Part shown: positions 5,226 to 58,531 of the stretch, piece by piece
Position numbering within the stretch: the stretch's first letter is position 1
How the letters are laid out: each line of letters starts with the position of its first letter
Translations under genes and position numbers: made by a program
Notes under the pieces: generated by a model
What the model was told of the DNA's origin: nothing
The model's database searches: none
The model's input: only the letters and a program-made list of their open reading frames with translations
DNA from: Liquidambar formosana
Taxonomy: Eukaryota > Streptophyta > Magnoliopsida > Saxifragales > Altingiaceae
Assembly: GCA_039720395.1 (NCBI GenBank)
Contig: CM077829.1
Location: 21,178,685-21,242,684, forward strand
Reading direction: 5' to 3'
Length of the DNA: 64,000 bases

Positions 5226-5226
5226 A

Positions 5227-5239
5227 TGGTATCAGAGCC
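5227..5239 (+). promoter_or_regulatory. Copia C primer binding site
   Basis: TGGTATCAGAGCC lies one base after the LTR end. This is the standard plant copia match to the 3' end of initiator methionine tRNA, where minus-strand DNA synthesis begins. Confidence 0.93.
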
Positions 5240-8200
5240 ATGGTTATGCCTAATACAAACTGCATATGGGCTGTAATTCATGGTAAATTGATTGGTTAAT
5301 AAATCTGGAATTTATGTTCATGCATTAGAATGGTTTCCCTCTCATGGCAAAACCTAGGGTTATTGAACCCTAGGATAATTCTCCTTCTACTCCTCTTCTA
5401 AAATAGTTTTAGGGCTGCTGGTTATTCAAAAGTTGAATGGGGATTGAGTTTGGAGAAGATGATGAACAGTTTTTATGATAGTCATAAAAAATCGTCATCT
5501 TGTTTTGCATGCCGAAATCAGAGTTCTTCTCCAAAATTTTCGAGCCATATATGGTTAGAAAGCTCTTCGAATCAGCTTTACAACCCGACAAATGGTTCGT
5601 CGATTCGAGTTTTGTAGTGAAAGTTATGAATTTTTTACTACAGGCTGTCAGGGAAGACAGTTTTGCTCGGGAATGATGTAACAGCCACAATTGTGAGTTT
5701 TTGATGGAGATCAAAAGCATGGCAATGGTTGCCACCACTTGGGTTATGTTCTAGACATGGTAGGAAAGGGTTCCCAAGCATTCGGATGTATCATAATTGG
5801 ATTATGAGTCTAGAACAAAAGGAAGAAGGAGAAGACCACCATGTTTGAATCTGGGTTTTAGAACCCTAGGGTTCTTGCTACTGTTATGATCAGATACTTC
5901 TGTAAAATTGATGAATAATCATTATAGGATGATGATATATGATGTATAGATCATATTCTTTAATAATCAAAGGAGTCTTGATGCATAAAGAATCAAAAAG
6001 TTTGATTTCTTGGAAGAACACAGCAGGCTGTTTTTCTGCAGAAACTCATCAATGGAGTTTTGTTCATATCTTGAGCTAGGGAACTCCAAATTGCATGAAA
6101 CCAATTTTATTAGTTTCCTAAGACATGTAGGATGCTTGGAAAAATATTTTGGTAGCCTGAATTAATCATCTTGCTGGGTTTTAAATCAATTTGTGATCAT
6201 GGACAGCATGCTGTCAAATTCTGGACAGCATGCTGTCAAATTCTGGACAGCCTACTGTTCTTGAATTGTTTAGAACAATTGGGGATGATTTGATCATCCA
6301 AACCACTTCAATTAGCTTAGTAATTCATGTAGGGACATGATACAAAAGCTGGTTTTGATGGTGGAGTTGAATTGATTAAGTTTTAGAAACTTTTGTGACC
6401 TTAGAGGTCCTCCAATGGTGGTGCCAGCACTGGGTTCAGGAAACCCTAATGTTCTTTGAAGAAGACAGCCCTCTTGGCCACTCCACACATGTCCATGGGC
6501 TTGGCCCACACCCTGGCTTGAGTCCCCCTTTGCTGGCCATGGCCTCCCATGGCCTGGCCAAGCCATGGCAGCCTTGCTAAGCCATGGCAGCCCACTAATG
6601 TGGTGGCAGCCTTAGGGTTTATGATGAAACCCTAATTCCCATTAATGATGAAACCCTAATTCATTAATTGCATTAATTAAAAACCCTAATTGACTATTAA
6701 TTACCTTAATTAAAATGTTTAATGATTGGTCATTAATTGACCAATCATGGTTATTAATCATTAGGGTATAATTAATTGCATTTATGATGTCTAGGGTTTA
6801 GGGTTTAGGAAACCCTAATTCATATTAATTAAACCCTAATTCTATTAATGCATTAATTAATAACTAAACCTAGTAATTAATGTGTCTAACCTAGGGTTAA
6901 ATGATTGGTCATTAATGACCAATCATGATCATTAATGGTTTAGTAATTAATCATTGGCATTTAATAGGTTTAAGGTTTAGGGTTTTAGAAACCCTAATTA
7001 GTGCATATTAATTAGGTGTAATTAATATCCTAGGTGGCATTAATTAAACCCTAATCCTGATCATTAATACCGTATAAACCTAGGGTTTAAATGATTGGTC
7101 ATTAATTGACCAATCATAAGGCATTTAATGCATTAGGGTTACACTTAGGGTTTAGAGTTAATGCATTTAGGGTTTAGGGTTTTAGGAAACCCTAATGCAC
7201 TAATTAATTAATAAAATGATTTTATTTAATTCCAAAATTGATTATTTAATTAATGGTGATTAATTTTATAATGTTTTAAATGGTTTAAAACACAATTTAG
7301 GATTAAAATAAAATCTGGAATTTTTTAATTAAATGAAATTGTTTTGTTTAATTAAAGAGACCCTAATATTTGATATTAGAGTTTTATTAGGGGACTTTAA
7401 ATGTTTCAATTGATTTGATTAATTGAAATTAAATGTCTTAAATGTTAAGACTTAATTAATTCAGGAACTTATGCATATCCTAATAAGATTAGGACACATT
7501 AATGAGATTAATGAAAACCAATCAATAGAGTTACCATAAATGCCCATATGTTTATTGCTTACAGTTATTTCCTTTATTATGCAATGTGATTGTATGGTTA
7601 TGGATGGATGATGATTATGGACTATACCCTTAAACCAATTGTGATTGGCCGTCTTATGAATGGGTTGTATAATTTTTCAAGAGTTGTCAATTTTTGGTGA
7701 TGTATTATTTATTTGGGGCTTGCATGCCACCTCCTTCTTCTCTCTCTCTATCATTCTCTTATGTACCCCACATTCCCCTTATGTATCCCTTTCTTTAAAA
7801 TTATGTAAATGTTATGTAATCGAGAGTGCACTAAGGAGCATGGTGGACCTAAAAGAGCATGGTGGAGCCCAACAAGCCTATGGTGGAGACCATGAAGCCA
7901 ATGGAGGAGATTGAAGGACTTGAAAGCTTGGAGAAGATTTTCAAGAGTGCATGCTATGTTTCAAATGAATGTTTTACGATCACCTACACCCACCTTAGAC
8001 CAAGGATTCAATTCATTGGCTTGGATTGAATCCTCTTAAAGTCCATAATCATCATAGTGGGAGCTTTTAATGAGATTAATAGAGATAGCTCCAAATCCAA
8101 AGATCATTATATGTCACCTTATAGGGACTAATATCGATAAGTGGATTATATATATATAATGTTGTTATATATTTCTTATTTAAATGCATGTGATGTATGT

Positions 8201-8816
8201 TAGATTAGTTAATTTGATGAGACCCTTAAAACCCCTCTTTTTTTTTTAATATTAAGTTGGAAATGGAGAATACATTAGGGAATGGATTCTTCATTGCCTT
8301 CCATCATTATAGGATCATCTAACGTCCCTTAATGTGGGTACCTGGCTGCAGACATGTAGGAGCTACCCATATTAAAGACATTACTTGAAACTATCACATA
8401 TGTAGATATCATGGGGTGCCTAAGCTGGTATATACCAAGAAACTAACATGTGAGGTATATATTTGGTGAAACATACCTGTGTGAATGATGGGTTTAACTT
8501 AACTAGGGAAGTATTCCAAGAAACTAACATGTGAGGAGTATGTACCCTAGAGGCAAAATGATTGGAACTTGCTTATGAAGCAATAGACAAAGAGTTGTCT
8601 TCTTACTGTGGGTTAGAAGTCAAGAAACTAACATGTGAGGCTTCTAGGTCATAGTGGGACCCCAATCCCCATTAGGAATAAGATTCCTGAATTCCATTAG
8701 AGGGTGTATGGAATTTGATAAAATAGTGGGAGGTACCATATGATTAAAGACCCGATCATTATGAATTAAAAATGAAATCTAATTCTCTATTTAATTTTTA
8801 TATGTAGTTCATAGAA
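5240..8816 (+). other. Copia C untranslated leader (3.6 kb)
   Basis: No gene is seen. It holds a tandem pair of GACAGCATGCTGTC palindromes (6202-6215, 6224-6237). An AT-rich block (6610-7200) follows with three diverged units, each carrying an inverted repeat ATGATTGGTCA/TGACCAATCAT (6722-6748, 6901-6926, 7091-7117) and AAACCCTAA/TTAGGGTTT motifs. The hairpin array comes last, at 8335-8647. A and B have only two of the palindrome units. Confidence 0.8.
8335..8647 (+). promoter_or_regulatory. Copia C leader hairpin array (candidate dimerisation/packaging signal)
   Basis: There are four hairpins. H0 (8335-8369): stem TGGGTA/TACCCA. H1 (8427-8463): TATATACC/GGTATATA. H2 (8506-8547): GTATTCC/GGAGTAT plus GGG/CCC. 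H3 (8613-8647): TAGAAGTC/GGCTTCTA. H1-H3 share the 17-nt loop AAGAAACTAACATGTGA exactly, while their stems are unrelated in sequence. All four loops contain the self-complementary hexamer ACATGT. Confidence 0.6.
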
Positions 8817-11419
8817 ATGGCTCACCTCAACCCGTTATCCAAAATATTGGACATCAACCGTTTGACTGGACCAAATTGTCTTGATTGGCTTAGGAATCTA
8901 AAAATTGTTTTGGATTCCAAGAATCTTACCTATGCACTTCATAATCCACTTCCCATTGCTCTTGCTGAGGCTACAACTCAGCAAGAGAAAGACGCTTACC
9001 AGAAGCGCATGGACGACGATCTCATGGCAAGGTGCTATATGATGGTATTTATGAGTCTCGAGCTTAAGAAGCAACATGAGTCCATGGGAAGTGCTTACGA
9101 GATTTTTATCAACATACAAGAATTGTATGGGAAAGAATTCTTGCTTGAATTTAATGAAGCTGCTACTTCCAAGTCTAAGCTCAAGCCCAAGGGCAAGAGC
9201 ATAGGCAAGGGCAAGAGTACCCGAAGGAAGAAGAAAGGTAACAACAAAGCCAAAGGAACTTGTTTTCACTGCGGCAAAGATGGGCACTAGAAACGTAACT
9301 GCCAAGAGTATCTGGATACTCTAAAGAAGCAACCTTTGGAAGGTTTGGATCATGCTCTAAACTAAATGTTAGTTCTGCTTCCACTTGGGTACTTAATTCT
9401 GATGTGAATTTTGAATTCCATGCAGAATCTAGTGGGAAGCAGAAGGCAGAGTAAAGGCGGATCAATCCTACAAGTGGGGAATGGAGCAAACGTTGCTGCA
9501 TTAGCTGTGGGGCTTATTGCTTGACTCTACCTAATGGAGTAGTTTAGAAATAATAGTTAGCTATCTTTACATTCCAGAAGTTATTAGAAACATTAATTTT
9601 ATTTCATTTTTATCTAAACGAGGTTTTAGTTTGATTTAATAAATGTTTTCTATTAAATGAAGAGTTCATTACTTCTGGAGTTTATATAGATGGCCTTTAT
9701 TTTCTAAACTTTATTGCAAATATGAATTGCAATGGAGCATGGTAGTTCTAAATTGAATGCTAATAAACCTAAGAGAACAAGATATACATAATGATGTATG
9801 TAGAAGTTTCTCTTACTTTACAACCTTTACCGATGATTCATTCTAGGTTTGGGTGTGTATACTTAATGAAGTACAAGTCTGAAACATTTGAAAGGTTCAA
9901 AGAATTCAGATATGAAGTAGAGAAACAAACTAGTAAAAGTATCAAGCTCTTCGATTGGATCGAGGAGGCGAATATTTAACTGGTGATCTTTTAGATCAAC
10001 TTGTTCAAACAGGCATTCTATTCTAATGGACACCTCTTAGAACACCATAACTAAATTGTGTGTCAGAAAGGAGGAAGAGGACCTTATTGGATATGGTCTA
10101 ATCCATGATAAGTTACAACAACCTAATATTATCCTTGTTAGGATATGCCCTAGAAATTGCCACGTACTTGTGAAACAGAGTTCAAACCAAGGCTATCCCT
10201 TAAGACCCATATGAGATATAAAAAGGGAAGCACCAAACCTTAAGCATGTTAAGGTATGGGGTTGCACTACATATGTGGAGACGTATAATGCAACCAAATT
10301 GGAAATCAAGATAACTTAAATGTAGGTTTGTGGATTACCCTAAAAGGAGTTTAGGATATCATATCTATCATCCTGATGAACAAAAGTGTTTGTTAATAAG
10401 TTTGCAATCTTTCTTGAAAAAGAGTCTATTCAAGAAGGAGGCAATAACAGGAAAATAGAACTCAAAGAGTTGTCTAATGAGACACAAACCAAAATTGATG
10501 CAACCCCTGTCCCTGTTGAGATAGAACCCGTTATTGTACCATGATTGTACAAAGGGTTAGTGGGAGTGCTATCACATTTATGGTCCTATGAGTGGATGAC
10601 ATTCTACTTATTTGAAATAATGTAGAGATGTTGTCAAAAGTGAAAAATTGGTTTTTCACAAAGTTTCTCCATAAAAGATTTGGAAGAAGCATCCTATATT
10701 CTGGGAATAGAGGTCTATAGAGATAGATATTAAAGGATGCTAAGTCTCTCTCAATCGAAGTACATAGACAAGATTTTGAAAGAGTTCAAAATGCATGATT
10801 CCAAAAGGAGGTCTAATTCCTGTCAGACATGGAATCAAGTTGTCTATAACTAAAAGACCAGATATCAGTTTTGCTGTAAATGTTACGAGCAGATATCAAG
10901 CAAACCCAGATAAGGAACACTGGAAAGCAGTCAAGGCTATCCTTAAGTTCTTGAGAAGAACTAAAGGACCTATCCCTTGCCTATGGAGAAAGAAACTTGA
11001 AATGGTTGGTAGAACGGATACAGATTTTCAATCTGATGATGATGATAGGAGATCAACATCAAGGTATGTTCTCACCTTAAATGGTGGAGCTGTAAATTTG
11101 AGCGCATTGTTGCATGTTTGGATGAGTAAGTTCATTACAGAACTAGGAGTGGTTCCTAACATTGAGAAGCCTTTACTATTGTTTTTGTGACAACAATAAG
11201 GCTAGTGCTCAAGACAAGGATCCATGGTCTCATCAAAAGTCCAAACTTTAAGCGGCAATTCCAAGTGATTAGAGAGATCATTGGAAGAGATGACATATAC
11301 ATATAAAAGTTTAAAAGAACAGAGAATAAAGAAGACCCCTTTACTAAAGCTATGACCCAAGTGTGTTGGATCACCACCGACAGGATATGAGTATGAGATG
11401 CATGGTGGATTGGCTATAG
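8817..11419 (+). pseudogene. gag-pol: Copia C gag-pol relic
   Basis: The gag start (MAHLNPLSKILDINRLTG) is recognisable and runs to a TAG at 9288-9290 that replaces the Trp of the zinc knuckle (CFHCGKDGH then stop). Against copia A, the protease motif LDSG has become LNSD. A deletion of roughly 250 bp near 9785 removes the integrase zinc-binding domain, and one of nearly 700 bp near 10542 removes most of the reverse transcriptase. Further stops and small indels break the integrase (9790-10330). The RNase H end is readable at 10795-11190. The last codons match the A and B stop (TAG at 11417-11419). Gag protein identity to A is about three quarters by eye, far lower than the identity of its own two LTRs. 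Confidence 0.9.
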
Positions 11420-11420
11420 T

Positions 11421-11433
11421 GCAAGTGGGAGAT
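11421..11433 (+). promoter_or_regulatory. Copia C polypurine tract
   Basis: GCAAGTGGGAGAT directly precedes the 3' LTR. It is identical in A, B and E, and is the expected primer for plus-strand DNA synthesis. Confidence 0.85.
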
Positions 11434-13125
11434 TGTTAGGATTATGCCCTAGAGCCAATCATGGAGATGATTGTTTAGGGATTAGGAACAATCAATTGAT
11501 TTCATTTATATATGTCACAATTATTATTGATTTAATAAAAGGGCTTATTCTATTATGTTTATATGCATCATTTATATTTACATAATATGTCCATGGAGTT
11601 AGAGTTGAGAATATGAAATTACAAAGGGTTGTAATTTTGAGACTGTAAATATATCTCTGTACTAAACTCCTAAATCATTCCTAGTTGAAGGTTCACTATG
11701 ATGGACAGTAATGAACCATAGGACTAGCACTTGTTAGGTTGACTCTATAGGAGGATAGCTAGTCTCAAGCTATTTGTGTGGAGACACTACAACCAACAAG
11801 TGGGTGCCTATTATAAGAATAGGTACACTGAATGTGACCAAAGATATGAGATAAACTGAATAGAGTTTTAACCTGCCTGTCAATCAGTTTCTCATTGTTA
11901 TAGTGGTACAAGTAATCCTTAGACCTGAGACACCATGGTTGTCTTATACATGTAGCTTTAGAAGTTTGATAACACTAAGTGCAGATCCTATTCAGGGGTC
12001 TGTAAGGGAGTTCATTGGCCCTACTGCTATGTGTGTGAAGGCATGTGAGTGATCAACAAGGAATCCATCACTCTCAAGAAAAAGAGAGTGAATGTCTCAT
12101 ACAGCATTCATTGAATATAACTCATTAAATCCATGGGCCCATGGTAGAATGAATATGGAAAGGAGTTTCCATAAGTTCATCATTGAGTTGATATTAATGA
12201 ATGAGTATAAAGTAATTGAACTAGGGACTTGACAGACTTCCATGTCCTATTAGTTCAATTGGAGACATTGTGTTGATGGAAGGATGGAATTGTAACCTGT
12301 AAACTATAACAGAAGGGTTCTTTGTAAATGACTATTCACCTCATTAAGGACCACACCATGAGCCATATGCTAGGTGTTACTCATGGTTAGTAGAAGCCCT
12401 AATTGATATAAATGAGTTATAATCAATTAGGGAATTGATAAGAGTTTCAATTAGACCCTTAATGGAAAGTGTTCCATTGTGCACAACTTGTGCTGTTCCT
12501 ACTACTTGATGATGTGAACCCAATGGGTCACACACTGATCATGCTAAGAGAGCTTGATTGTCTATGAGAGAAAGGGTATAAGTGATTAAAGAAAAGTTCT
12601 TTAAGGGGCTAATTTGTATTTGATGCAAACTAGTGGGCTAATTGTGTAATTAAGAGTAATTACACAAATTAGATTAGGGTTTGGAATCCCCCCTTGGCCG
12701 GCCCTATTAGTGGGCTATATAATGCCCACTATAAGGTGATGACATCATCACAATCACTCCTCCCCAAGGGCTGGCTGAAAATTACAGCTCTCCCTCTCTC
12801 TCTCTCTTTCTTCTCCACCTCTAGCAACAACAAGGAAGAAGGAGGAAAGGACTTCAAGCTCAAGCTAGGTGTGGATACCGTTGGAGGCAGCACACTTGGG
12901 CTGCTCATTCACCGCTGTCCGGAGACAAAGCTTGGAGCAAAAAGGAGAAGACAAAGTTTGGAGCATAAAGGAGAAGACATTAATCAACTGTAAGTAATCC
13001 CAACTCTCTTGGTAGTTAGGGTTTATGTTTTTGTATTATGCATAATTGGATTCATGGGTTTGGGAATCGTAAGAAAATTTTAATTCCGTCCTTTGTAGTT
13101 TTCCTCCCTAGTTAGATTCCCAACA
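11434..13125 (+). repeat. Copia C 3' LTR
   Basis: It matches the 5' LTR at 3532-5225 along its full length, with about twenty substitutions and a 2-bp change in the CT microsatellite. It is followed by the target duplication CACAA. The small open frame at 12694-12993 is LTR sequence and has no coding support. Confidence 0.95.
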
Positions 13126-16748: not shown

Positions 16749-16761
16749 TGGTATCAGAGCC
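16749..16761 (+). promoter_or_regulatory. Copia A primer binding site
   Basis: TGGTATCAGAGCC begins two bases after the LTR end, a match to the initiator methionine tRNA 3' end. Confidence 0.93.
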
Positions 16762-19700
16762 ATGATTATGCATAATACAAAATACATATGGGCTGGAATT
16801 TATGGTGTAGTTGAATGATTCAAAAATCTGGAGAATTTTTACTGCAGAATTGTTCTTCTCTCTGGCCGAACCTAGGGTTTGGAACCCTAGGTCTATTCTT
16901 CTTCTACTCCTCTTCTAAATCATGGTTAAGGGTAACCATTGATGCAAAGGTTGTATAGGGTTTGAATTGGAAGAAGAAGAAAAAGGAAAACTGGGTTTTC
17001 TGTAGAGGGTCGAATCTGGGTTTTAGAACCCAGAGGTTCTTGCAATTAAATTCAATCAAAGCTTCTGTATTTATGATGCAAATCCATTGTAGGATCATTA
17101 TATATCATGTATATATGATTTTCTTTAAGTTTCAAAAAGGTTTTGATGGAAAAAGATTCAAAAAGTTTGAAAATTTTTCATGAACAGCATAGCAGATTTT
17201 CTCTGCAGAAAAGTCATCAATGGAGTTTTGATTAGAACTTGAGTTAGGGAACTCCAAATTGCATGAAACCAATTGCATTAGTTTCCTAAGACATGTAGGA
17301 TACTGGGAAAATTCGTTTGGTAGCCTAATTCATTCATCTTGCTGGGTTTTAAATCAATTTCTGACCATGGACAGTATGCTGTCAAATTCTGGGCAGCATA
17401 CTGTTGTTTTAATTGTTTAGAACAATTGGTGATGATTCGATCATCCAAACCTCTTCTAGAAGCTTAGTATTTCATGTAGGGACATGATACAAAAGCTGGT
17501 TTCAATGGAGGAGTCGAATTGATAAGGATTTAGAAGCTATTGTGACCTTCAAGGTCTGCAACAATGGCTCCAGCAGTGGGTTTTGGAAACCCTGATTGTT
17601 TTTGATGATGGCAGCCACTTCCACCACTCCTCATGTGTCCAGAGGCTTGTCCCACACTCCTAGGATGTTCTCCCATGGCTGGTGATGGCCTTCCCCAGTC
17701 GTTGGTGGCCATGACAGCCTAGCCAAGCTCAGGCAGCCCCCTGGTTGTGACGGCTGCATAGAGTTAAGGATGAAACCCTAATTTTGAGTTAATGATGAAA
17801 CCCTAATTTCATTATGGCATTAATTAAAACCCTAATTGGAATATTAATTACCTTTATTAAGAGTTAATGATTGGTCATTAAATGACCAATCATGGTTATT
17901 AATTGTTAGGGCATAATTAATACCATAAATGATGTCTAGGGTTAGGGTTTTGGAAACCCTAATTAGTATAATTAATTAAGGGTAATTAATACCCTATTTG
18001 GCATTAATTAAACCCTAATCCCTTTTATTAAATACCATATGAACCTAGGGTTTTAATGATTGGACATTAAATGACCAATCATAAGGAATTTAATGATTAG
18101 GGCTTGCATTTAGGGTTTAGGGTTATGCGTTTAGGGTTTAGGGTTTTAGGAAACCCTAATACACTAATTCATCATTTAAATGATTTTATTTAATTCCCAT
18201 GTTAATTATTTAATTAATATTGATTAATTTTATAATGTTTTAAATGGTTTAAAATACAATTGGGGATTAAATTAAAATCTGGAAATTCTTAATTAAATGA
18301 AATTGATTTGTTTAATTAAGGAAACCCTAATATTGGATATTAGAGTTATTTTAGGAAACTTTATATGTTTAAATTAATTTGATTAATTGAAACTAAAATG
18401 TCTTAAATGTTAAGACTTTATTTAATTCTGGATATTTTTGTTAATACCTAATAAGATTAGGATGCATTAATGAGATTAATGTAAATCATTCAAGAGAATT
18501 ACCATAATGCCCATATGTTTTAATGCTTACAGTTTTTCTTTACATTATGCAATGAGATTGTATGTATGTGTTTGGATGATGATTATGGACTATACCCTTT
18601 AAACCAATTGTGATTGGCCGTCTTATGAATGGGATGTTATTATTTACAAGAGTTGTAATTTTATTAAGGTGATGTAATTTATTTGGGGCTTGCATGCCAC
18701 CTTCCCTCTCCCTCTCTCTCTATCATTCTCTTATGTACCCTACATTCCCCTTATGTATCCCTTTCTTTAAATTATGTAAATGTTATGTAATCGAGAGCGC
18801 ACTAAGGAGCATGGTGGACCCAAAGGAGCATGATAGAGCCCAACAAGCCAATGGTGGAGACCATCAAGCCAAGGGAGCAGATTGAAGGACTTGAAAGCTT
18901 AGAGAAGTGTTTCAAGACAGCATGCATGTTTCGAATGTGTTATTTTACGATCACCTACACCCACCTTAGACCTTGGATTCAATCTATTGGCTTGGATTGA
19001 ATCCTCTCAAAGTCCATAATCATCATAGTGGGAGCTTTTAATGAGATTAATAGTGATAGCTCCAAATCCATAGATCGTTATATGTCTCTTCTTAGGGACT
19101 AATATCGATAAGTGGATTATTATTATTTTATGCTGTTCAATTTTTTTTTATTTATATGCATGAGATGTATGTTAATTTGATGAGACCCTTAAAAACCCCT
19201 CTATTTTAATATTAAGTTGGAAATGGAGAATACATTAGGGAATGGATTCTTCATTGCCTTCCATCATTATAGGATCATCTAACGTCCCTTAATGTGGGTA
19301 CCTGGCTGCAGACATGTAGGAGCTACCCATATTAAAGACATTACTTGAAACTATCACATATGTAGATATCATGGGGTGCCTAAGCTGGTATATACCAAGA
19401 AACTAACATGTGAGGTATATATTTGGTGAAACATACCTGTGTGAATGATGGGCTTAACTTAACTAGGGAAGTATTCCAAGAAACTAACATGTGAGGAGTA
19501 TGTACCCTAGAGGCAAAACGATTGGAATTTGCTTATGAAGCAATAGACAAAGAGTTGTCTTCTTACTGTGGGTTAGAAGTCAAGAAACTAACATGTGAGG
19601 CTTCTAGGTCACAGTGGGACCCCAATCCCCATTAGGAATGAGATTCCCGAATTCCATTAGAGGGTGTATGGAATTTGATAAAATAGTGGGAGGTACCATA

Positions 19701-19777
19701 TGATTAAAGACCCGATCATTATGGATTAAAAATGAAATCTAATTTTCTGTTTAATTTTCTGTATGTAGATCACCGTA
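16762..19777 (+). other. Copia A untranslated leader (3.0 kb)
   Basis: No gene is seen. An AT-rich part (17750-18180) has two units with the inverted repeat ATGATTGGTCAT...ATGACCAATCAT (17867-17893, and 18056-18082 with one mismatch) and TTTAGGG-like motifs. The hairpin array is at 19295-19607. The small open frame at 18694-18885 is repeated in B and E and has no recognisable product. Confidence 0.8.
19295..19607 (+). promoter_or_regulatory. Copia A leader hairpin array (candidate dimerisation/packaging signal)
   Basis: H0 19295-19329, H1 19387-19423, H2 19466-19507, H3 19573-19607, ending about 170 bp before the gag ATG. H1-H3 have different stems but the same loop AAGAAACTAACATGTGA. ACATGT in each loop could pair with the same loop on a second RNA. 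Confidence 0.62.
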
Positions 19778-22700
19778 ATGGCTCACCGCAACCCGTTATC
19801 CAACATTTTGGAAACCAACCGTTTAACTGGACCTAATTATCTTGATTGGTTAAGGAATTTAAAAATCGTTTTGAATTCTGAAAATATTACCTATGCACTT
19901 CAAAGTCCACTTCCCAATGCTCCTACTGAGGCTGCAACTCGGCAAGAGAAAGACGCTTATCAGAAGCGCATGGATGATGATCTTATGACGAGATGCTATA
20001 TGATGGTGTCTCTAAGTCCTGAGCTTAAGAAGCAATACGAGTCCATGGGAAGTGCACCCGAGACATTTATCCACATACAAGAGTTGTATGGCAAAGAGTT
20101 CTTGCTTGAATGTGATGAATGGGTTGAAGTTCCTGCTTCCAATTCTATACTCAAGCCTAAAGGCAAGGGAATAAGAAAGGGTAAGAGTACCCAAAGGAAG
20201 AGGAAAGGTAAAGGGATCTGTTTTTACTGCGGCAAAGATGGGCATTGGAAATGTAACTGCCAAGAGTATCTAGATACTCTGAAGAACCAACCTTCGGAAG
20301 GTATGGATTATGCTCTTATACTTGAGACTAACATGAGTGTTAGCTCTGCTTCCACTTGGGTACTAGATTCTGGTGCGAGTTCTCATATTTGTAATTCTAT
20401 GCAGGACCTAGTGGGAAGCAGAAGGCTGAGTAAAGGAGAAGTAACCCTACGAGTGGGAAATGGAGCAAACGTTGCTGCATTAGCCGTGGGGACTTGCTGC
20501 TTGACTTTGCCTAGTGGGAGTAGTTTAGAATTATCAGGCTGTCTTTATATTCCAGAAGTTATAAGAAACATTATTTCTATTTCAGTATTATCTAAACAAG
20601 GATTTAGGTTTGTTTTTGAGGAGAATAAATGTTCTTTATTTAAAAATGAAGAGTTCATTACTTCTGGAGTTTATGTAAATGGCCTTTATTTTCTAAACTT
20701 TATTGCAAATGTTAATTGCATAGAGCATGATAGTTCTAAATTGAATGCAAACAAACCCAAGAGAACAAGAGATGAAGAAAACTCCGCATATGACTGGCAC
20801 TTGAGACTAGGTCATATCAGTGAGAATAGGATTAACAAGATGTGTAAGGATGGACAATTGGGTCCATTGGTTTCTATGCCCTTTCCAACTTGTGAATCTT
20901 GTTTACTAGGTAAAATGACCAAGTCACCTTTCACCGGTCACGGTGAGAGAGCTGCAGACATATTAGGATTGATACATAGTGATGTATGTGGTCCTATGAG
21001 CATACATGCTCGTGGAGGTTTCTCTTACTTTATAACCTTTACCGATGATTATTCTAGGTACGGGTATGTGTACTTAATGAAGTACAAATCTGAAGCATTT
21101 GAAAAGTTTAAAGAATTCAGATATGAAGTAGAGAAACAAACTGGTAAAAGTATTAAAGCTCTTCGATCGGATCGAGGAGGAGAATATTTAACTGGTGAGT
21201 TTTTAGATCATCTTGTTCAAGCGGGCATTCTATCTCAATGGACACCTCCTGGAACACCACAGCTTAATGGTGTGTCAGAAAGGAGGAATAGAACCTTATT
21301 GGATATGGTTAGGTCCATGATGAGTTACATTGATTTACCATTGTCCTTCTGGGGACATGCCCTGGAAACTGCCGCGTACTTGTTGAACAGAGTCCCAACT
21401 AAATCTGTCCCTAAGACACCGTATGAGATATGGAAAGGGAGAGCACCAAGCCTTAAACATATTAAGGTATGGGGTTGCACTGCATATGTAAAGACACATG
21501 ATGCAACCAAGTTAAAATCAAGATCAATTAAATGTAGGTTTGTGGGATATCCTAAAGAGAGTTTAGGATATTATTTCTATTATCCTGATGAACAAAAGGT
21601 GTTTGTTAGTAAGTTTGCAGTCTTTCTTGAAAAAGAGTTTATTCAAGAAGGAGGCAATAACAGGAAAATAGAACTCAAAGAATTGTCTGATGAGACACAA
21701 ACCGACAGTGATCCCACCCCTGTCCCTGATGAGACAGAACCCACTAATGTACCACAACCTCTCCGTAGATCGAGTAGGGTATCTGTTGCACCTGAGAGAT
21801 ATGGATTTCTCAACCATAATGCAGAGGAATTGTTCCTTGGTGATAGAGAACACCCAGATGACCCTACTACTTATGGACAGGCGATTTCGGATATTGATTT
21901 GAACAAATGGCTGGAAGCTATGAAATCTGAAATGGACTCGATGTATTCCAACAAAGTCTGGACTTTAGTTTATCCACCAGAAGGTATAGTACCTATTGGC
22001 TGCAAATGGATTTTCAAAAAGAAGATAGGCTCAGATGGAAAGGTAGAGACCTACAAGGCTAGGCTAGTGGCAAAAGGTTACCGACAAAGACATGGTATTG
22101 ACTATGAGGAAACCTTCTCGCCAGTGGCTATGCTTAAGTCCATTAGGATCTTGTTAGCTATAGCTGCGCACTACGATTATGAGATATGGCAAATGGATGT
22201 AAAGACCGCTTTCCTTAATGGAAACATTGAGGAAGACCTTTATATGCAGCAACCTGAGGGTTTTACATCCAGTGGTGAGGACCACAAAATGTGCAAGCTA
22301 CAGCGGTCCATTTATGGACTCAAACAAGCTTCTAGAAGCTGGAACATCCGATTCGATGAGGCAATCAAATCGTTTGGTTTCCTACAGAATATGGATGAAC
22401 CATGTGTGTACAAGAAAGTTAGTGGGAGTGCGATTACCTTCCTGGTCCTATATGTTGATGACATTCTACTTATCGGGAATAAAGTAGAAACGTTATCAAA
22501 AGTGAAAGAGTGGCTTTCATAGAATTTCTCCATGAAAGATTTGGGAGAAGCATCCTATATTCTGGGAATAAAGGTCTATAGAGATAGATCTAAAAGGATG
22601 CTAGGTCTCTCCCAATCATTGTACATAGACAAAATATTGAAAAGGTTCAATTTAGAAGATTCCAAAAGAGGTCTAATTCCTGTTAGGCATGGAATCAAGT

Positions 22701-23451: not shown

Positions 23452-26400
23452 TGTTAGAGTTATGCCCTAGAGCCAATCATAGAGATGATTGTTTAAGGAT
23501 AAAGGAACAATCATTTGATTTCATTTATGTATGTCACATTTATTATTGATTTAATAAAAGGGCTTATTCTATTATGTTTGTATGCATCATTTATATTTAC
23601 ATAATATGTCCAAGGAGTTAGAGTTGAGAATATTGAATTACAAAGAGTTGTAATTATGAGACTGTAAATATATCTCTGTACTAAACTCCTAAATCATTCC
23701 TAGTTGAAGGTTCACTATGATGGACAGTAATGAACCATAGGACTAGCACTTGTTAGGTTGACTCTATAGGAGGATAGCTGGTCTCAAGCTATTTGTGTGG
23801 AGACACTACAACCAACAGGTGGGTGCCTATTAATAGAATAGGTACACTGAATGTGACCAAAGATTTGAGATAAACTGAATGGAGTTTTAACCTGCCTGTC
23901 AATCAGTTTCTCAATGTTATAGTGGTACAAGTAATCCTTAGACCTGAGACACCATAGTTACCTTATGCATGTAGCTTTAGAAGTTTGATAACACTAAGTG
24001 CAGATTCTATTCATGGGTCTGTAAAGGTGTTCATTGGCCCTATTGCTATATGTATGAAGGCATATGAGTGATCGACAAGGAATCCATTACTCTCAGGAAA
24101 AAGAGAGAGAATGTCTCATATATCATTCATAATATAACTCATTCAGTCCATGGCCATGGCAGTGTGAATATGGAAAGGAGTTTCCATAAGTTCATCATTG
24201 AGTTGATATTTATGAATGAGTATAAAGTAATTGAACTAGGGACTTGACAGACTTCCATGTCCTATTAGTTCAATTGGAGACATTGTGTAAATGGAAGGAT
24301 GCAATTGTAACCTATAAACTATAACAGAAGGGTTCTTTGATAGATACATATTCACTTCATTAAGGACGACACCATGAACCATATGCTAGGTGTTATTCAT
24401 GGTTAGTAGAAGCCCTAATTGATATAAGTGAGTTATAATCAATTAGGGAATTGGAAGGAGTTCCAATTGTTGGGAATCGAACAAGAGGGAAAAATAGAAG
24501 TGCGGAATATAAAAAATTTTTTCCTACGATTCCCAATCCCATGAATCTAACTATGCATAACACAAAATCAAACCCTAACTACGAAGAGGGTTAGAACACT
24601 TACAGGATTTTTGTCTTCTCCGTTTTGCTCCAAGCTTCTACTCCGGACGGCGGTGAATGAGCAGCCCAAGTGTGCTGCCTCCAACGATATCCACACCTAG
24701 CTAGAGCTTCAAGCCTTTTCTTTCTTCTTCCTTGTTGTTGCTAGAGGTGGAGAAGAGAGAGAGAGAGAAGAGAGCCTCCAAAGGGCTGGACGGCTAGGGT
24801 TTATTGTGCAAGCCTCTTATGCCATGTCACACATAAGTGTGACTTATATAGGCATCCCACTAAAAGGGGCTGGCCATGGGGAAGAAACCCTAATAGGGTT
24901 ATGTATAATTACACTTAATTGCACATTAACCCCTATTATTTGTATCAAATACAAATAGGCCTATAAAGAACTATTCTTTATTCACTAAAACCCTTTCTCT
25001 CATAGACTTTAAAGCCCTTCTTGCATGATCAGTGTGTGACCCATTGGGTTCACATCATTAAGTAGTAGGAATAGCACGAGGTGTGCACAATGGAACTCTT
25101 TCCATTTAGGGTCTAATTGGAACTCCTTCCAATTCCCTAATTGATTATAACTCACTTATATCAATTAGGGCTTCTACTAACCATGAGTAACACCTAGCAT
25201 ATGGCTCATGGTGTGGTCCTTAATGAGGTGAATAGTCATTTACAAAGAACCCTTCTGTTATAGTTTATAGGTTACAATTGCATCCTTCCTTCAACACAAT
25301 GTCTCCAATTGAACTAATAGGACATGGAAGTCTGTCAAGTCCCTAGTTCAATTACTTTATACACATTCATAGATATCAACTCATAGATGAACTCATGAAA
25401 CTCTTTTCATATTCATCCTACCATGGCCATGGATTTAATGAGTTATATTATGAATGCTATATGAGACATTCTCTCTCTTTTTCCTAAGAGTGATGGATCC
25501 CTTGTTGATCACTCACATGCCTTCATACACATAGCAGTAGGGCCAATGAACACCTTTGCAGACCCCTGAATAGGATTTGCACTTAGTGTTATCAAACTTC
25601 TAAAGCTACATGCATAAGGCAACTATAGTATCTCAGGTCTAAGGATTACTTGTACCACTATAACAATGAGAAACTGATTGACAGGCAGGATAAAACTCCA
25701 TTCAGTTTATCTCATATCTTTGGTCACATTCAGTGTACCTATTCTTATAATAGGCACCCACTTGTTGGTTGTAGTGTCTCCACACAAATAGCTTGAGACT
25801 AGCTATCCTCCTATAGAGTCAACCTAACAAGTGCTAGTCCTATGGTTCATTACTATCCATCATAGTGAACCTTCAACTAGGAATGCTTAAGGAGTTTAGT
25901 ACAGAGATATATCTATAGTCTCAAAATTACAACTCTTTGTAATTCCATATTCTCAATTCTAACTCCATGGACATATTATGTAAATATAAATGATGCATAT
26001 AAACATAATAGAATAAGCCCTTTTATTAAATCAATAATAAATGTGACATACATAAATGAAATCAAATGATTGTTCCTAATCGCTAAACAATCATCTCTAT
26101 GATTGGCTCTAGGGCATAATCCTAACACCAATTAGACCCTAAATGGAAAGAGTTCCATTGTGCACACCTCGTGCTATTCCTACTACTTGATGATGTGAAC
26201 CCAATGGGTCACACACTGATCATGCAAGATGAGCTTTAAAGTCTATGAGAGAAAGGGTATGAGTGCATAAAGAATAGTTCTTTGAGGCCTATTTATATTT
26301 GATATAATTTATAGGGGTTATTGTGCAATTTAGAGAAATTGCATCACACCCTAATAGGGTTTCCCCCTAGGGCCGGCCCCCTTAGTGTGGACTATATAAG

Positions 26401-29699: not shown

Positions 29700-31358
29700 T
29701 GTTGGGAATCGAACAAGAGGGAAAAATAGAAGTGCGGAATATAAAAAATTTTTCCTACGATTCCCAATCCCATGAATCTAACTATGCATAACACAAAATC
29801 AAACCCTAACTACGAAGAGGGTTAGAACACTTACAGGATTTTTGTCTTCTCCGTTTTGCTCCAAGCTTCTACTCCAGACAGCGGTGAATGAGCAGCCCAA
29901 GTGTGCTGCCTCCAACGGTATCCACACCTAGCTAGAGCTTCAAGCCTTTTCTTTCTTCGTCCTTGTTGTTGCTAGAGGTGGAGAAGAAAGAGAGAGAGAA
30001 GAGAGCCTCCAAGGGGCTGGACGGCTAGGGTTTATTGTGCAAGCCTCTTATGCCATGTCACACATAAGTGTGACTTATATAGGCAGCCCACTAAAGGGGG
30101 CTGGCTATGGGGAAGAAACCCTAATAGGGTTATGTGTAATTACACTTAATTGCACATTAACCCCTATTATTTGTAACAAATACAAATAGGCCTATAAAGA
30201 ACTATTCTTTATTCACTAAAACCCTTTCTCTCATAGACTTTAAAGCCCTTCTTGCATGATCAGTGTGTGACCCATTGGGTTCACATCATTAAGTAGTAGG
30301 AATAGCACAAGGTGTGCACAATGGAACTCTTTCCATTTAGGGTCTAATTGGAACTCCTTCCAATTCCCTAATTGATTATAACTCACTTATATCAATTAGG
30401 GCTTCTACTAACCATGAGTAACACCTAGCATATGGCTCATGGTGTGGTCCTTAATGAGGTGAATAGTCATTTACAAAGAACCCTTCTATTATAGTTTATA
30501 GGTTACAATTGCATCCTTCCTTCAACACAATGTCTCCAATGGAACTAATAGGACATGGAAGTCTGTCAAGTCCCTAGTTCAATTACTTTATACTCATTCA
30601 TAGATATCAACTCATAGATGAACTCATGAAACTCTTTTCATATTCATCCTACCATGGCCATGGATTTAATGAGTTATATTATGAATGCTATATGAGACAT
30701 TCTCTCTCTTTTTCCTAAGAGTGATGGATCCCTTGTTGATCACTCACATGCCTTCATACACATAGCATTAGGGCCAATGAACACCTTTGCAGACCCCTGA
30801 ATAGGATTTGCACTTAGTGTTATCAAACTTCTAAAGCTACATGCATAAGGCAACTATGGTGTCTCAGGTCTAAGGATTACTTGTACCACTACAACAATGA
30901 GAAACTGATTGACAGGCAGGATAAAACTCCATTCAGTTTATCTCATATCTTTGGTCACATTCAGTGTACCTATTCTCGCAATAGGCACCCACTTGTTGGT
31001 TGTAGTGTCTCCACACAAATAGCTTGAGACTAGCTATCCTCCTATAGAGTCAACCTAACAAGTGCTAGTCCTATGGTTCATTACTGTCCATCATAGTGAA
31101 CCTTCAACTAGGAATGCTTTAGGAGTTTAGTACAGAGATATATCTATAGTCTCAAAATTACAACTCTTTGTAATTCCATATTCTCAACTCTAACTCCATG
31201 GACATATTATGTAAATATAAATGATGCATATAAACATAATAGAATAAGCCCTTTTATTAAATCAATAATAAATGTGACATACATAAATGAAATCAAATGA
31301 TTGTTCCTAATCCCTAAACAATCATCTCCATGATTGGCTCTAGGGCATAATCCTAACA
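29700..31358 (-). repeat. Copia E 3' LTR (reversed)
   Basis: TGTTGGGAATC to CCTAACA on plus. Nearly identical to solo LTR D and to the partner LTR at 37743-39395. Confidence 0.95.
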
Positions 31359-31371
31359 ATCTCCCACTTGC
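31359..31371 (-). promoter_or_regulatory. Copia E polypurine tract
   Basis: GCAAGTGGGAGAT on the minus strand, directly before the 3' LTR. It is unchanged although the adjacent coding region is decayed. Confidence 0.82.
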
Positions 31372-34275: not shown

Positions 34276-37200
34276 GTAATCTACATAAACAGAGAATTAG
34301 ATTTCATTTTTATCCATAATGATTGGGTCTTTAATCATATGGTACCTCCCACTATTTTATCAAATTCCATACACCCTCTAATGGAATTCGGGAATCTCAT
34401 TCCTAATGGGGATTGGGGTCCCACTGTGACTTAGAAGCCTCACATGTTAGTTTCTTGGCTTCTAACCCACAATAAGAAGACAACTCTTTGTCTATTGCTT
34501 CATAAGCAAGTTCCAATCGTTTTGCCTCTAGGGAACATACACCTCACATGTTAGTTTCTTGGAATACTTCCCTAGTTAAGTTAAACCCATCATTCACACA
34601 GGTATGTTTCGCCAAATATATACCTCACATGTTAGTTTCTTGGTATATACCAGTTTAGGCACCCCATGATATCTCATATGTGATAGTTTCAAGTAATGTC
34701 TTTAACATGGGTAGCTCCTACATGTCTGCAGCCAGGTACCCACATTAAGGGACGTTAGATGATCCTATAATGATGGAAGGCAATGAAGAATTCATTCCCC
34801 AATGACTTCTCCATTTTCAACTTAATATTAAATAAGAGGGGTTTTAAAGGGTCTCATCAAATTAACATGCATCCTATGTATCAAAATTTAAACATATAAA
34901 TTATGCTATTTATAATCATACATCTCATGCTATTATAAATCATACATCGCATGCTATTATATATCAACATATATAAAGTACCATATTTTGATATTAGTCC
35001 CTAAGTAAATAGGTAACATATACCAAACTATGGTATTGGAGCTAATACAATTATCTCATAAATTAAAGCTCCCACTATGATGATTATGGACTTTGAGAGG
35101 ATTCAATCTAAGCCAATAGATTGAATCCAAGGTCTAAGGTGGGTGTAGGTGATCGTAAAATAACACATTCGAAACATGCATGCTGTCTTGAAACACTTCT
35201 CTAAGCTTTCAAGTCCTTCAATCTGCTCCCTTGGCTTGATGGTCTCCACCATTGGCTTGTTGGGCTCTATCATGCTCCTTTGGGTCCACCATGCTCCTTA
35301 GCGCGCTCTCGATTACATAACATTTACATAATTTAAAGAAAGGGATACATAAGGGGAATGTGGGGTACATAAGAGAATGATAGAGAGAGAGGGAGAGGGA
35401 AGGTGGCATGCAAGCCCCAAATAAATTACATCACCTTAATAAAATTACAACTCTTGTAAATAATAACATCCCATTCATAAGACGGCCAATCACAATTGGT
35501 TTAAATGGTATAGTCCATAATCATCATCCAAACACGTACATACAATCTCATTGCATAATGTAAAGAAAAACTGTAAGCATTAAAACATATGGGCAGTATG
35601 GTAATTCTCTTGAATGATTTACATTAATCTCATTAATGCATCCTAATCTTATTAGGTTTTAACAAAAATATCCAGAATTAAATAAAGTCTTAACATTTAA
35701 GACATTACAGTTTCAATTAATTAAATTAATTTAAAACATGCAAAGTTTCCTAAAATAACTCTAATATCCAATATTAGGGTTTCCTTAATTAAACAAAACA
35801 ATTTCATTTAATTAAGAATTTCCAGATTTTAATTTAATCCCTAATTGTGTTTTAAACCATTTAAAACATTATAAAATTAATCAATATTAATTAAATAATT
35901 AATATAGGAATTAAATAAAATCATTAAAATGATGAATTAGTGTATTAGGGTTTCCTAAAACCCTAAACCCTAAATGCATAACCCTAAACCCTAAATGCAA
36001 GCCCTAATCATTAAATGCCTTATGATTGGTCATTTAATGTCCAATCATTAAAACCCTAGGTTCATATGGTATTTAATAAAAGGGATTAGGGTTTAATTAA
36101 TGCCAAATAGGGTATTAATTACCCTTAATTAATTACACTAATTAGGGTTTCCAAAACCCTAACCCTAGACATCATTTATGGTATTAATTATGCCCTAACA
36201 ATTAATAACCATGATTGGTCATTTAATGACCAATCATTAACTCTTAATAAAGGTAATCAATATTCCAATTAGGGTTTTAATTAATGCCATAATGAAATTA
36301 GGGTTTCATCATTAACTCAAAATTAGGGTTTCATCCTTAACTCTATGCAGCCGTCACTACCAGGGGCTGCCTGAGCTTGGTTAGGCTGCCATGGCCGCCA
36401 ACGACTGTGGGAGGCCATGGCCAGTCATGGGAGAACATCCTAGGGGTGTGGGACAAGCCTCTGGACACGTGAGAAGTGGTGGAAGTGGCTGCCATCATCA
36501 AGAACAATCAGGGTTTCCAAAACCCATTGCTGGAGCCATTGTTGCAGACCTTGAAGGTCACAATAGCTTCTAAAACCTTATCAATTCGACTCCTCCATTG
36601 AAACCAGCTTTTGTATCATGTCCCCACATGAAATACTAAGCTAATAGAAGAGGTTTGGATGATCAAATCATCATCAATTGTTCTAAACAATTAAAACAAC
36701 AGTAGGCTGCCCAGAAATTTACAGCATACTGTCCATTGTCAGAAATTGATTTAAAACCCAGCAAGATGAATGAATTAGGCTACCAAACGAATTTTCCCAG
36801 TATCCTACATGTCTTAGGAAACTAATGCAATTGGTTTCATGCAATTTGGAGTTCCCTAACTCAAGTTCTAATCAAAACTCCATTGATGACTTTTCTGCAG
36901 AAAAATTCTGCTATGCTGTTCATGAAAAATTTTCAAACTTTTTGAATCTTTTTCCATCAAAACCTTTTTGAAACTTAAAGAAAATCATATACACATGATA
37001 TATAATGATCCTACAATGATCTTCCATCATAAATACAGCAGCTTTAATTAGAATTAATTGCAAGAACCTTTGGGTTCTAAAACCCAGATTCAGCCTCCAT
37101 GGTGTTCTTCTCCTTCTTCCTTCTGTTCTAGCATCTTAATCCAATTATGATGCATCTAAATGCTTGGGAACCTTTCCCTACCATGTCTAGAACATAACCC

Positions 37201-37728
37201 AAGTGGTGGCAACCATTGCCATGCCTTTGATCTCCATCAACAACTCAAAGTTGTGGTTATTGCATCATTCCCGAGCAAAACTGTCTTTCCAGACAGCCTG
37301 TAGTAAAAAATTCATAACTTTCACTACAGAACTCGGATTGATGCACCGTTTGTTGGGTTGGAAAGCTTATTCGAAGAGCTTTCTAACCATATATGGCTCG
37401 AAAATTTTGGAGAAGAACTCTGAATTCGGCATGCAAAACAAGATGACGGTTTTTCATGGCTACCATGAAAACTGTTCATAACAGTTTTATAAAACCCTAG
37501 TTTCCTTATTCTTCTTCTCCAAACTCAAACCCTATGCAACCTATTGCATCCATGGCTACACTTAACCATCAATAAGAAGAGGAGTAGAAGAGAATTGACC
37601 TAGGGTTCCAAACCCTAGGTTCAGCCATGGAGGAAAACCAATTATGCAGAAAACTTTTCCAGATTTTTGAATCATTCAACTACACCATAATTACCAACCC
37701 ATATGTATTTTGTATTATGCATAATCAT
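34276..37728 (-). other. Copia E untranslated leader
   Basis: No gene is seen. It matches the leaders of A and B well along its length, including two inverted repeats (36022-36048, 36211-36237) and the hairpin array. This contrasts with the poor match of the neighbouring coding region. Confidence 0.8.
34432..34742 (-). promoter_or_regulatory. Copia E leader hairpin array
   Basis: Minus strand: H0 34742-34708, H1 34651-34615, H2 34572-34531, H3 34464-34432. The 17-nt loop is unchanged three times. In H3 the stem is perfect (TAGAAGCC/GGCTTCTA), where A, B and C have a G-U pair. In H2 the lower stem GGGAA/TTCCC is longer than in A. Confidence 0.6.
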
Positions 37729-37741
37729 GGCTCTGATACCA
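37729..37741 (-). promoter_or_regulatory. Copia E primer binding site
   Basis: TGGTATCAGAGCC on the minus strand, one base inside the LTR at 37743. Confidence 0.92.
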
Positions 37742-37742
37742 C

Positions 37743-42246: not shown

Positions 42247-42256
42247 GAAGCCCCTC
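42247..42256 (-). promoter_or_regulatory. Element G polypurine tract
   Basis: GAGGGGCTTC on the minus strand abuts the 3' LTR. It is purine-rich in its first part and fits the leftward orientation. Confidence 0.6.
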
Positions 42257-51842: not shown

Positions 51843-51843
51843 G

Positions 51844-51856
51844 TGGTATCAGAGCC
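51844..51856 (+). promoter_or_regulatory. Copia B primer binding site
   Basis: TGGTATCAGAGCC, two bases after the LTR. Confidence 0.93.
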
Positions 51857-54800
51857 ATGGCTATGCATAATACAAAATACATATGGGCTGGAATTTATGG
51901 TGTAGTTGAATGATTCAAAAATCTGGAGAATTTTTACTGCAGAATTGTTCTTCTCTCTGGCCGAACCTAGGGTTTGGAACCCTAGGTCTATTCTTCTTCT
52001 ACTCCTCTTCTAAATCATGGTTAAGGGTAACCATTGATGCAAAGGTTGTATAGGGTTTGAATTGGAAGAAGAAGAAAAAGGAAAACTGGGTTTTCTGAAG
52101 AGGGTCGAATCTGGGTTTTAGAACCCAGAGGTTCTTGCAATTAAATTCAATCAAAGCTTATGTATTTTTGATGCAAATCCATTGTAGGATCATTATATAT
52201 CATGTATATATGATTTTCTTTAAGTTTCAAAAAGGTTTTGATGGAAAAAGATTCAAAAAGTTTGAAAATTTTTCATGAACAGCATAGCAGATTTTCTCTG
52301 CAGAAAAGTCATCAATGGAGTTTTGATTAGAACTTGAGTTAGGGAACTCCAAATTGCATGAAACCAATTGCATTAGTTTCCTAAGACATGTAGGATACTG
52401 GGAAAATTCGTTTGGTAGCCTAATTCATTCATCTTGCTGGGTTTTAAATCAATTTCTGACCATGGACAGTATGCTGTCAAATTCTGGGCAGCATACTGTT
52501 GTTTTAATTGTTTAGAACAATTGGTGATGATTCGATCATCCAAACCTCTTCTAGAAGCTTAGTATTTCATGTAGGGACATGATACAAAAGCTGGTTTCAA
52601 TGGAGGAGTCGAATTGATAAGGTTTTAGAAGCTATTGTGACCTTCAAGGTCTGCAACAATGGCTCCAGCAATGGGTTTTGGAAACCCTGATTGTTTTTGA
52701 TGATGGCAGCCACTTCCACCACTCCTCACGTGTCCAGAGGCTTGTCCCACACCCCTAGGATGTTCTCCCATGGCTGCCCATGGCCTCCCACAGTCGTTGG
52801 TGGCCATGGCAGCCTAGCCAAGCTCAGGCAGCCGTCTTGGTAGTGACGGCTGCATAGAGTTAAGGATGAAACCCTAATTTTGAGTTAATGATGAAACCCT
52901 AATTTCATTATGGCATTAATTAAAACCCTAATTGGAATATTAATTACCTTTATTAAGAGTTAATGATTGGTCATTAAATGACCAATCATGGTTATTAATT
53001 GTTAGGACATAATTAATACCATAAATGATGTCTAGGGTTAGGGTTTTGGAAACCCTAATTAGTGTAATTAATTAAGGGTAATTAATACCCTATTTGGCAT
53101 TAATTAAACCCTAATCCCTTTTATTAAATACCGTATGAACCTAGGGTTTTAATGATTGGACATTAAATGACCAATCATAAGGAATTTAATGATTAGGGCT
53201 TGCATTTAGGGTTTAGGGTTATGCGTTTAGGGTTTAGGGTTTTAGGAAACCCTAATACACTAATTCATCATTTAAATGATTTTATTTAATTCCCATGTTA
53301 ATTATTTAATTAATATTGATTAATTTTATAATGTTTTAAATGGTTTAAAATACAATTGGGGATTAAATTAAAATCTGGAAATTCTTAATTAAATGAAATT
53401 GATTTGTTTAATTAAGGAAACCCTAATATTGGATATTAGAGTTATTTTAGGAAACTTTATATGTTTAAATTAATTTGGTTAATTGAAACTAAAATGTCTT
53501 AAATGTTAAGACTTTATTTAATTCTGGATATTTTTGTTAATACCTAATAAGATTAGGATGCATTAATGAGATTAATGTAAATCATTCAAGAGAATTACCA
53601 TAATGCCCATATGTTTTAATGCTTACAGTTTTTCTTTACATTATGCAATGAGATTGTATGTATGTGTTTGGATGATGATTATGGACTATACCCTTTAAAC
53701 CAATTGTGATTGGCCGTCTTATGAATGGGATGTTATTATTTACAAGAGTTGTAATTTTATTAAGGTGATGTAATTTATTTGGGGCTTGCATGCCACCTTC
53801 CCTCTCCCTCTCTCTCTATCATTCTCTTATGTACCCCACATTCCCCTTATGTATCCCTTTCTTTAAATTATGTAAATGTTATGTAATCGAGAGCGCACTA
53901 AGGAGCATGGTGGACCCAAAGGAGCATGATAGAGCCCAACAAGCCAATGGTGGAGACCATCAAGCCAAGGGAGCAGATTGAAGGACTTGAAAGCTTAGAG
54001 AAGTGTTTCAAGACAGCATGCATGTTTCGAATGTGTTATTTTACGATCACCTACACCCACCTTAGACCTTGGATTCAATCTATTGGCTTGGATTGAATTC
54101 TCTCAAAGTCCATAATCATCATAGTGGGAGCTTTTAATGAGATTAATAGTGATAGCTCCAAATCCATAGATCGTTATATGTCTCTTCTTAGGGACTAATA
54201 TCGATAAGTGGATTATTATTATTTTATGCTGTTCAATTTTTATTTATATGCATGAGATGTATGTTAATTTTATGAGACCCTTAAAAACCCCTCTTTTTTA
54301 ATATTAAGTTGGAAATGGAGAATACATTAGGGAATGGATTCTTCATTGCCTTCCATCATTATAGGATCATCTAACGTCCCTTAATGTGGGTACCTGGCTG
54401 TAGACATGTAGGAGCTACCCATATTAAAGACATTACTTGAAACTGTCACATATATAGATATCATGGGGTGCCTAAGCTGGTATATACCAAGAAACTAACA
54501 TGTGAGGTATATATTTGGTGAAACATACCTGTGTGAATGATGGGCTTAACTTAACTAGGGAAGTATTCCAAGAAACTAACATGTGAGGAGTATGTACCCT
54601 AGAGGCAAAACGATTGGAATTTGCTTATGAAGCAATAGACAAAGAGTTGTCTTCTTACTGTGGGTTAGAAGTCAAGAAACTAACATGTGAGGCTTCTAGG
54701 TCACAGTGGGACCCCAATCCCCATTAGGAATGAGATTCCCGAATTCCATTAGAGGGTGTATGGAATTTGATAAAATAGTGGGAGGTACCATATGATTAAA

Positions 54801-58530: not shown

Positions 58531-58531
58531 T

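Follow-up and report, generated by a model that had tools for sequence, protein, structure and literature searches.

Four copia elements and their leaders

The window, that is, the whole 64,000-nt stretch of DNA that was analysed, contains four related copia elements, denoted A, B, D and E. They are listed here together with the main features of element B.

3532-13125, + strand: element A
15093-about 26770, + strand: element B
39399-29700, - strand: element D
50184-60201, + strand: element E
16749..19777, + strand: leader of element B, 3,029 nt, from the primer-binding site TGGTATCAGAGC to the gag ATG
19778..22519, + strand: first part of the gag-pol open frame of element B; the frame is interrupted afterwards

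An LTR pair, an iMet-type primer site and a gag-pol frame with copia domains place the elements among the Ty1/copia LTR retrotransposons; copia is named in 2 of the 54 protein matches. The primer-binding site TGGTATCAGAGC, which we take to fit tRNA-iMet, is found directly after each 5' LTR. The LTR pairs of A, D and E are 98.25-99.76% identical (0.24 to 1.75% difference), while LTRs differ by up to 12% between families; B and E form a single family (LTR identity 99%), with A and D representing two further ones. The first 300 aa of the gag-pol frame of element B include a Pol_BBD domain, and its 3,029-nt leader contains 108 ATGs. No stop-to-stop frame reaches 180 aa inside A or D, and one of 1,222 aa is present in E. 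The 3' LTR of element B is interrupted by a D-type LTR on the - strand (24468-26127). The window also holds a tandem repeat with a unit of about 79 bp (42553-43063), seen in a self-comparison, and direct repeats of about 2.6 kb that are 97.6% identical (39615-42247 and 47419-50058) and are perhaps the LTRs of another element.

Element D (29700-39399, - strand) is a mosaic, with LTRs about 90%, a leader about 96% and a gag-pol remnant 67-76% like B; the last figure was obtained for the pol remnant from eight aligned pieces. Stop-to-stop frames in its internal part do not exceed 53 aa.

A triplicated loop upstream of gag

An array of hairpins (H1 to H4) is located at the end of the leader, about 160-490 nt upstream of the gag ATG (19778 in B).

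19289..19335, + strand: H1 of element B, a 12-bp stem with the apical stem-loop GGCTGCAGACATGTAGG
19387..19423, + strand: H2 of element B, stem GGTATATACC/GGTATATATT, loop AAGAAACTAACATGTGA at 19397-19413
19463..19510, + strand: H3 of element B, inner stem GTATTCC/GGAGTAT, outer stem CTAGGG/CCCTAG, loop AAGAAACTAACATGTGA at 19478-19494
19565..19615, + strand: H4 of element B, inner stem TTAGAAGTC/GGCTTCTAG, outer stem ACTGTG/CACAGT, loop AAGAAACTAACATGTGA at 19582-19598
8329..8655, + strand: array in element A, the coding part of which is degenerate; loops at 8437, 8518 and 8622
34423..34748, - strand: array in element D, which belongs to a multi-copy family lacking coding capacity; loops at 34625, 34544 and 34440
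54381..54707, + strand: array in element E; loops at 54489, 54570 and 54674

The original prediction placed three identical 17-nt loops on complementary stems in all four copies, and this is exact in sequence and position: AAGAAACTAACATGTGA occurs 12 times in the window, three times in each of the four arrays, with no further match in the window at up to 3 mismatches (0.42 expected). In copy B the loops are flanked by complementary runs 10, 7 and 9 deep (H2, H3 and H4, respectively); runs no shorter than 8, 7 and 8 would arise by chance with a probability of about 3.5e-9, as estimated from all window positions. Compared with dinucleotide shuffles, the array has the better fold (z -4.45, 0 of 100). 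The three stems, which had been described as unrelated, are indeed complementary, but the first two are partly alike (TATACC in H2, TATTCC in H3). The wobble-pair change of the original prediction is a U-G to C-G change in the last hairpin of the reversed copy D, which also breaks one inner pair of its middle hairpin.

H1 differs from the other three hairpins, and its kin are present in the other window copies and in most of the arrays fetched from the genome. It does carry ACATGT, as had been proposed, but not in a free loop: for A, B and D, the prediction pairs the last three bases of the motif within the apical stem; E, in which a neighbouring C is changed, has a different predicted pairing pattern. 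H2 accounts for only 20-33% of the predicted ensemble, because its loop can, by the same prediction, pair with an upstream CACATATG. This pairing was considered as a conserved switch and discarded, the CACATATG stretch being altered in the TT and the diverged TC arrays described below. A kink-turn was set aside, since the bulge would be one base short of the consensus. Rfam families gave 0 matches in the window at the gathering score.

A comparison of hairpins and flanks within the window gave a mixed result. Elements A and B are 97-100% identical over 19220-19720 (100-column steps), a block of about 500 nt that reaches beyond the hairpins, as against 65-95%, mostly 82-92%, elsewhere in the leader and the start of gag. 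The site patterns change as well. Of 1,080 sites in the upstream leader (17850-18950), A stands alone against B, D and E at 128 and D is the odd one out at 8; of 386 in the array region (19221-19607), this holds for A at 1 and for D at 12. A groups with B in the array and lies outside B, D and E in the upstream leader. Judged from these patterns, the near-identity of the A and B arrays is better explained by recombination into A than by selection alone, and selection as the sole cause was rejected on account of the change in site pattern. Since the A array appears to be recombined, conservation within the window is weak evidence.

Variation of loops and stems among genome copies

Diverged copies were sought in the host genome (718 Mb, 370 contigs). 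Fifteen of the 17 positions of the loop hardly vary. The two others, at 10-11, form a dinucleotide, referred to here as the tip, which depends on the subfamily (AC, TA, TT or TC) and as a rule agrees among the three loops of an array. AC is the most abundant type, with 7,672 exact loop 20-mers, followed by TA with 716 exact matches; a pattern accepting TT, TC and others gave 108 matches, and the control was 0 in each case. At least 40 exact genome copies exist of the D array, and likewise at least 40 of the B array. The H2 stem with any 17-nt loop was found at 2,867 places (control 3), and among the 50 of these that were listed, 47 have the AC loop, 1 has TA and 2 have single changes.

An independent view of the loops is provided by 39 loci that were fetched by an upstream leader fragment and not by the array. 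Complete arrays are present in 36, of which 34 are AC/AC/AC and 2 are TA/TA/TA (L097 and L105), so that the tips agree within 36 of 36; the remaining loci comprise one cut to two AC loops and two without loops. Over the 37 loop-bearing loci, the 15 non-tip sites show 5 changes in 1,650 cells. At 11 sites within about 530 nt, L097 and L105 both depart from the letter that predominates in the other 35 arrays; 6 of the 11 make up the tip dinucleotide in the three loops. A further 24 arrays were fetched by loop pattern. Loops that had not been used to find their own array match the dinucleotide of their siblings in 17 of 18 cases, with 10 of 270 non-tip sites changed. The patterns with which the TT and TC arrays, and all but two of the TA arrays, were found prescribe the 15 non-tip sites, and the fixity of these sites in the TT and TC families rests mainly on arrays found in this way.

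Tips are mixed in L114 (AC, TA, TA), which is perhaps a recombinant, in L127 (TC, TT, TT) and in L134 (AT, TT, AC), and the A family has both TA and AC arrays behind the same leader type. In a tree of the arrays calculated with the loops masked, the TT arrays are grouped (support 0.81), the TC arrays fall into more than one group, and the AC arrays of D lie apart from those of A/B, with TA arrays between them on short branches. The tips must therefore have changed at least three times, each time in all three loops, or arrays have been exchanged.

Stem pairing was counted in 18 arrays, with all rows included, also that of L129, which has a foreign 5' arm; the distinct rows number 15, 17 and 16 for H2, H3 and H4. 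Standard pairs make up 90.4% of H2, 82.4% of H3 and 77.8% of H4, compared with at most 66.7, 58.2 and 61.8% when the partners are slid. The observed paired percentage is reached by 0, 0 and 7 of 500 shuffles, and the covariation score by 3, 0 and 40 of 500, respectively, so that covariation is clear in H2 and H3 and weak in H4; in the TT arrays, H4 contains a bulge of 1-2 nt, and the gapless count treats this as unpaired. The number of doubly changed pairs is not above that of shuffles (139, 308 and 451 of 500 reach the observed value), and in H3 a slide by +1 yields numbers of doubly changed pairs and cells equal to those of the real structure. The RNAalifold consensus of 11 arrays contains 110 pairs, H1 included, of which 26 are changed on both sides. 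Within one element, H2-H4 covary with one another (95.2% paired; covariation 0.656, the maximum for slid partners being 0.243).

When folded free of any alignment, 24 of 24 hairpins from 8 arrays lie below their own shuffled mean, and p is 0.02 or less in 18 of the 24, although the hairpins are not independent, the stems of B, D and L113 being near-equal. The six that miss this threshold are H4 of TT1, all three hairpins of TT2, which are weakly paired (p 0.11-0.23), and H2 of both L131 and L134. Together, the pair counts, the RNAalifold consensus and the alignment-free folding uphold the proposal that both loop sequence and stem pairing are under selection: the loops do vary at their tips, and the stems covary to the degrees given above.

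TT1 and TT2 are two TT subfamilies with new stems and spacers. Between TT1 and B, 36.0% of stem sites and 33.5% of other (spacer) sites differ; in the loop, 6 of 51 sites differ, all six in the tip, a figure that the search pattern favours. The difference between the loop and the rest has a Fisher p of 0.0014 for TT1 and 0.066 for TT2. The gag of TT1 (L132) is open for 125 codons and 56% identical to that of B over 107 aa, which indicates that this pair of families is old.

A more distant array is found in a record titled Solirubrobacter (L134; NZ_QPKJ02000018.1, 1-4783). The element is of plant type, with 35% GC and with copia LTR-like, leader, array and protease pieces; the bacterial contig is likely a case of assembly contamination. 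The array identity is 73% and that of the protease 74% aa over 58 residues. Its best match in the host genome, among 40 scored, is 76%, so it belongs to another family, and the source is probably another plant. On new stems, the loops keep 44 of 45 non-tip letters, with two of the three loops pattern-found; the middle hairpin pairs at 14 of 16 positions and pairing is mostly kept overall. The frame from the ATG at the gag position (4499-4783) enters the protease within about 45 codons, and the capsid part seems to be missing, as in an element needing the Gag of another. A search of viral_contigs gave no match to the AC 19-mer, the gag piece or the NN 20-mer, and one of genome_contigs gave no match to the AC 20-mer and one match to the NN 20-mer.

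The array had also been described as persisting in copies with decayed coding regions, and it is indeed retained in copies unable to make Gag, which fits a role in packaging. All 30 D-type loci that were chosen by the array and fetched share the non-coding downstream part of D, one of them (L055) being cut upstream. D seems to be a successful family unable to make Gag, its copy number being judged from the array and flanks of these 30 loci only. A different arrangement is seen in L034 (543-4230), of which one copy is known: the leader and array are followed by a short gag remnant and then by an LTR, without gag-pol.

Possible roles of the array

The array is a structured, conserved RNA between the primer site and gag, and it is kept in a mobile family lacking gag (D), both features being those of a packaging signal. 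Its retention in an abundant non-coding family favours a cis-acting role of the RNA. A loop preserved almost letter by letter on interchangeable stems, three times over, further suggests a sequence-specific RNA-binding partner. With moderate confidence, based on sequence comparison, we propose that the array is a cis-acting element of three equivalent hairpins, most likely encapsidation sites bound by Gag, with a family-specific tip. Self-pairing is probably not the chief function of the hairpins; a protein, most likely the element's own Gag, would take hold of the RNA through them. The sequences themselves show the array, its covarying stems, its nearly invariant loops with mostly matching tips, its retention in a non-coding family and its occurrence in a different family; we infer three things, namely that the partner is a protein, that this protein is Gag and that the step concerned is packaging.

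In the proposed mechanism, each hairpin would present a 17-nt loop, AAGAAACUA-NN-AUGUGA, on a stem for which C-G is the usual closing pair, the stems merely holding the loop out, and the different hairpin H1 would accompany the three equivalent ones. The loops would all be read by one trans-acting partner, which is most likely the Gag of the element and would bring the full-length RNA into virus-like particles; the three copies would give avidity, and the variable dinucleotide at the tip may tune recognition between families. Families without Gag may keep the array because they need packaging by the Gag of another element. The selection of RNA for packaging is poorly mapped in plant LTR retrotransposons, which make up a large part of many plant genomes. 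The array offers a short, copy-rich and testable motif with natural variants of loop (AC, TA, TT, TC) and stem. These variants would permit a direct measurement of specificity, and one might tell from sequence which family serves another as helper and which is the parasite.

In MLV, the GACG tetraloop stands on two neighbouring hairpins. GACG loops of alpha- and gammaretroviruses are a 4-nt motif linked to viral RNA packaging (PMC516450, in the part of the text available), whereas the loop described here is 17 nt long, is present in three copies and has a variable tip. The coronavirus hairpins SL5a and SL5b likewise carry identical loops (UUUCGU) on different stems in a 5' UTR, with a suggested role in packaging, but they belong to an unrelated virus, the loop has 6 nt, and the portion of PMC7822759 at hand describes no matched loop changes. 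Among copia elements, barley BARE2 cannot make Gag, is packaged by BARE1 and is said to have conserved dimerisation and packaging signals (PMC3735527, excerpts). The relation of a Gag-less subfamily to its partner is thus shared with BARE1/BARE2, while no triplicate loop is described in those excerpts (PMC3735527). It is the analogy with BARE2 and with the retroviral packaging signals that makes Gag the likeliest partner. Among titles and beginnings of abstracts, mostly of open papers, no description of a triplicate loop in a plant retrotransposon was found, and the accessible part of a grapevine copia paper (PMC2576258) does not mention hairpins or packaging.

A bolder form of the Gag-binding proposal, which we consider speculative and on the whole unlikely, is that the tip is a packaging code, the same two letters being read by Gag in all three loops, and that non-autonomous parasites adapt to whichever Gag is active at the time by altering or swapping their entire array. 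If so, the A family, with TA and AC arrays behind the same leader type, would have been caught in a switch. No Gag with a change matching the TA arrays was found, the two TA elements that were read downstream being degenerate. Matched tips could also be obtained by common descent and exchange between arrays, without any partner.

The partner may not be Gag. A host RNA-binding protein acting in export, stability or localisation, or an RNA of the host or element, might read the loops instead; loop conservation and matched tips require only some common partner, but a fixed host partner is hard to square with four tips in one genome, and we regard this alternative as rather unlikely. STAR proteins, for which the site is ACUAAY, were considered and rejected, this site being matched by the AC loops only.

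The original prediction took the self-complementary ACATGT to be the working part, by which the loops of two RNAs would kiss and start the genome dimer. The motif is present in all 12 window loops and in the most abundant loop type, and Ty1 and retroviruses are thought to dimerise via loops (PMC5454406 and PMC516450, each in part). Ty1 itself has loops near the 5' end of its RNA, in SL1a and SL3a, for which a role in dimerisation and packaging is proposed; these are, however, two different and complementary loops, according to the available text of PMC5454406, whereas here three loops are equal and self-complementarity is not conserved. ACATGT is confined to the AC type: TA, TT, TC and AT loops have no 6-nt palindrome, and only one of the three loops of L134 retains it. 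The palindrome was therefore rejected as a conserved feature, and self-complementary kissing is not the conserved function. Moreover, loop bases outside the palindrome are conserved at least as well as those within it, half of the ACATGT of H1 is predicted to be paired, and this motif becomes ATATGT in the TT arrays and in L134. Kissing-loop dimerisation hence appears improbable.

Translation control appears similarly improbable. Each loop reads A-NN-AUG-UGA: the start codon has A at -3 and a stop directly after it, an arrangement conserved as in an AUG-stop upstream ORF, and degenerate -2 and -1 positions would explain the free dinucleotide. In the 5' UTR of plant NIP5;1, AUGUAA stalls ribosomes (PMC11915504, as excerpted). 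In every loop type the group consensus of H2-H4 preserves ATGTGA and the A at -3, although single copies differ and the search pattern behind the TT and TC arrays already prescribes ATGTGA. With 108 ATGs in the leader, however, scanning ribosomes would probably miss the array unless the leader is spliced, and the agreement of the three tips and the nearly fixed first eight bases of the loop are left unexplained. The retention of the array in D, which has no gag frame, also argues against a role in translating gag.

Finally, the triplicate could be a functionless relic of duplication, its sameness due to recent spread and recombination; the A array does look borrowed (the A-specific sites given above), but this is very improbable in view of the covarying stems and nearly fixed loops, which are maintained across up to about 35% non-loop divergence and also in the different family of L134.
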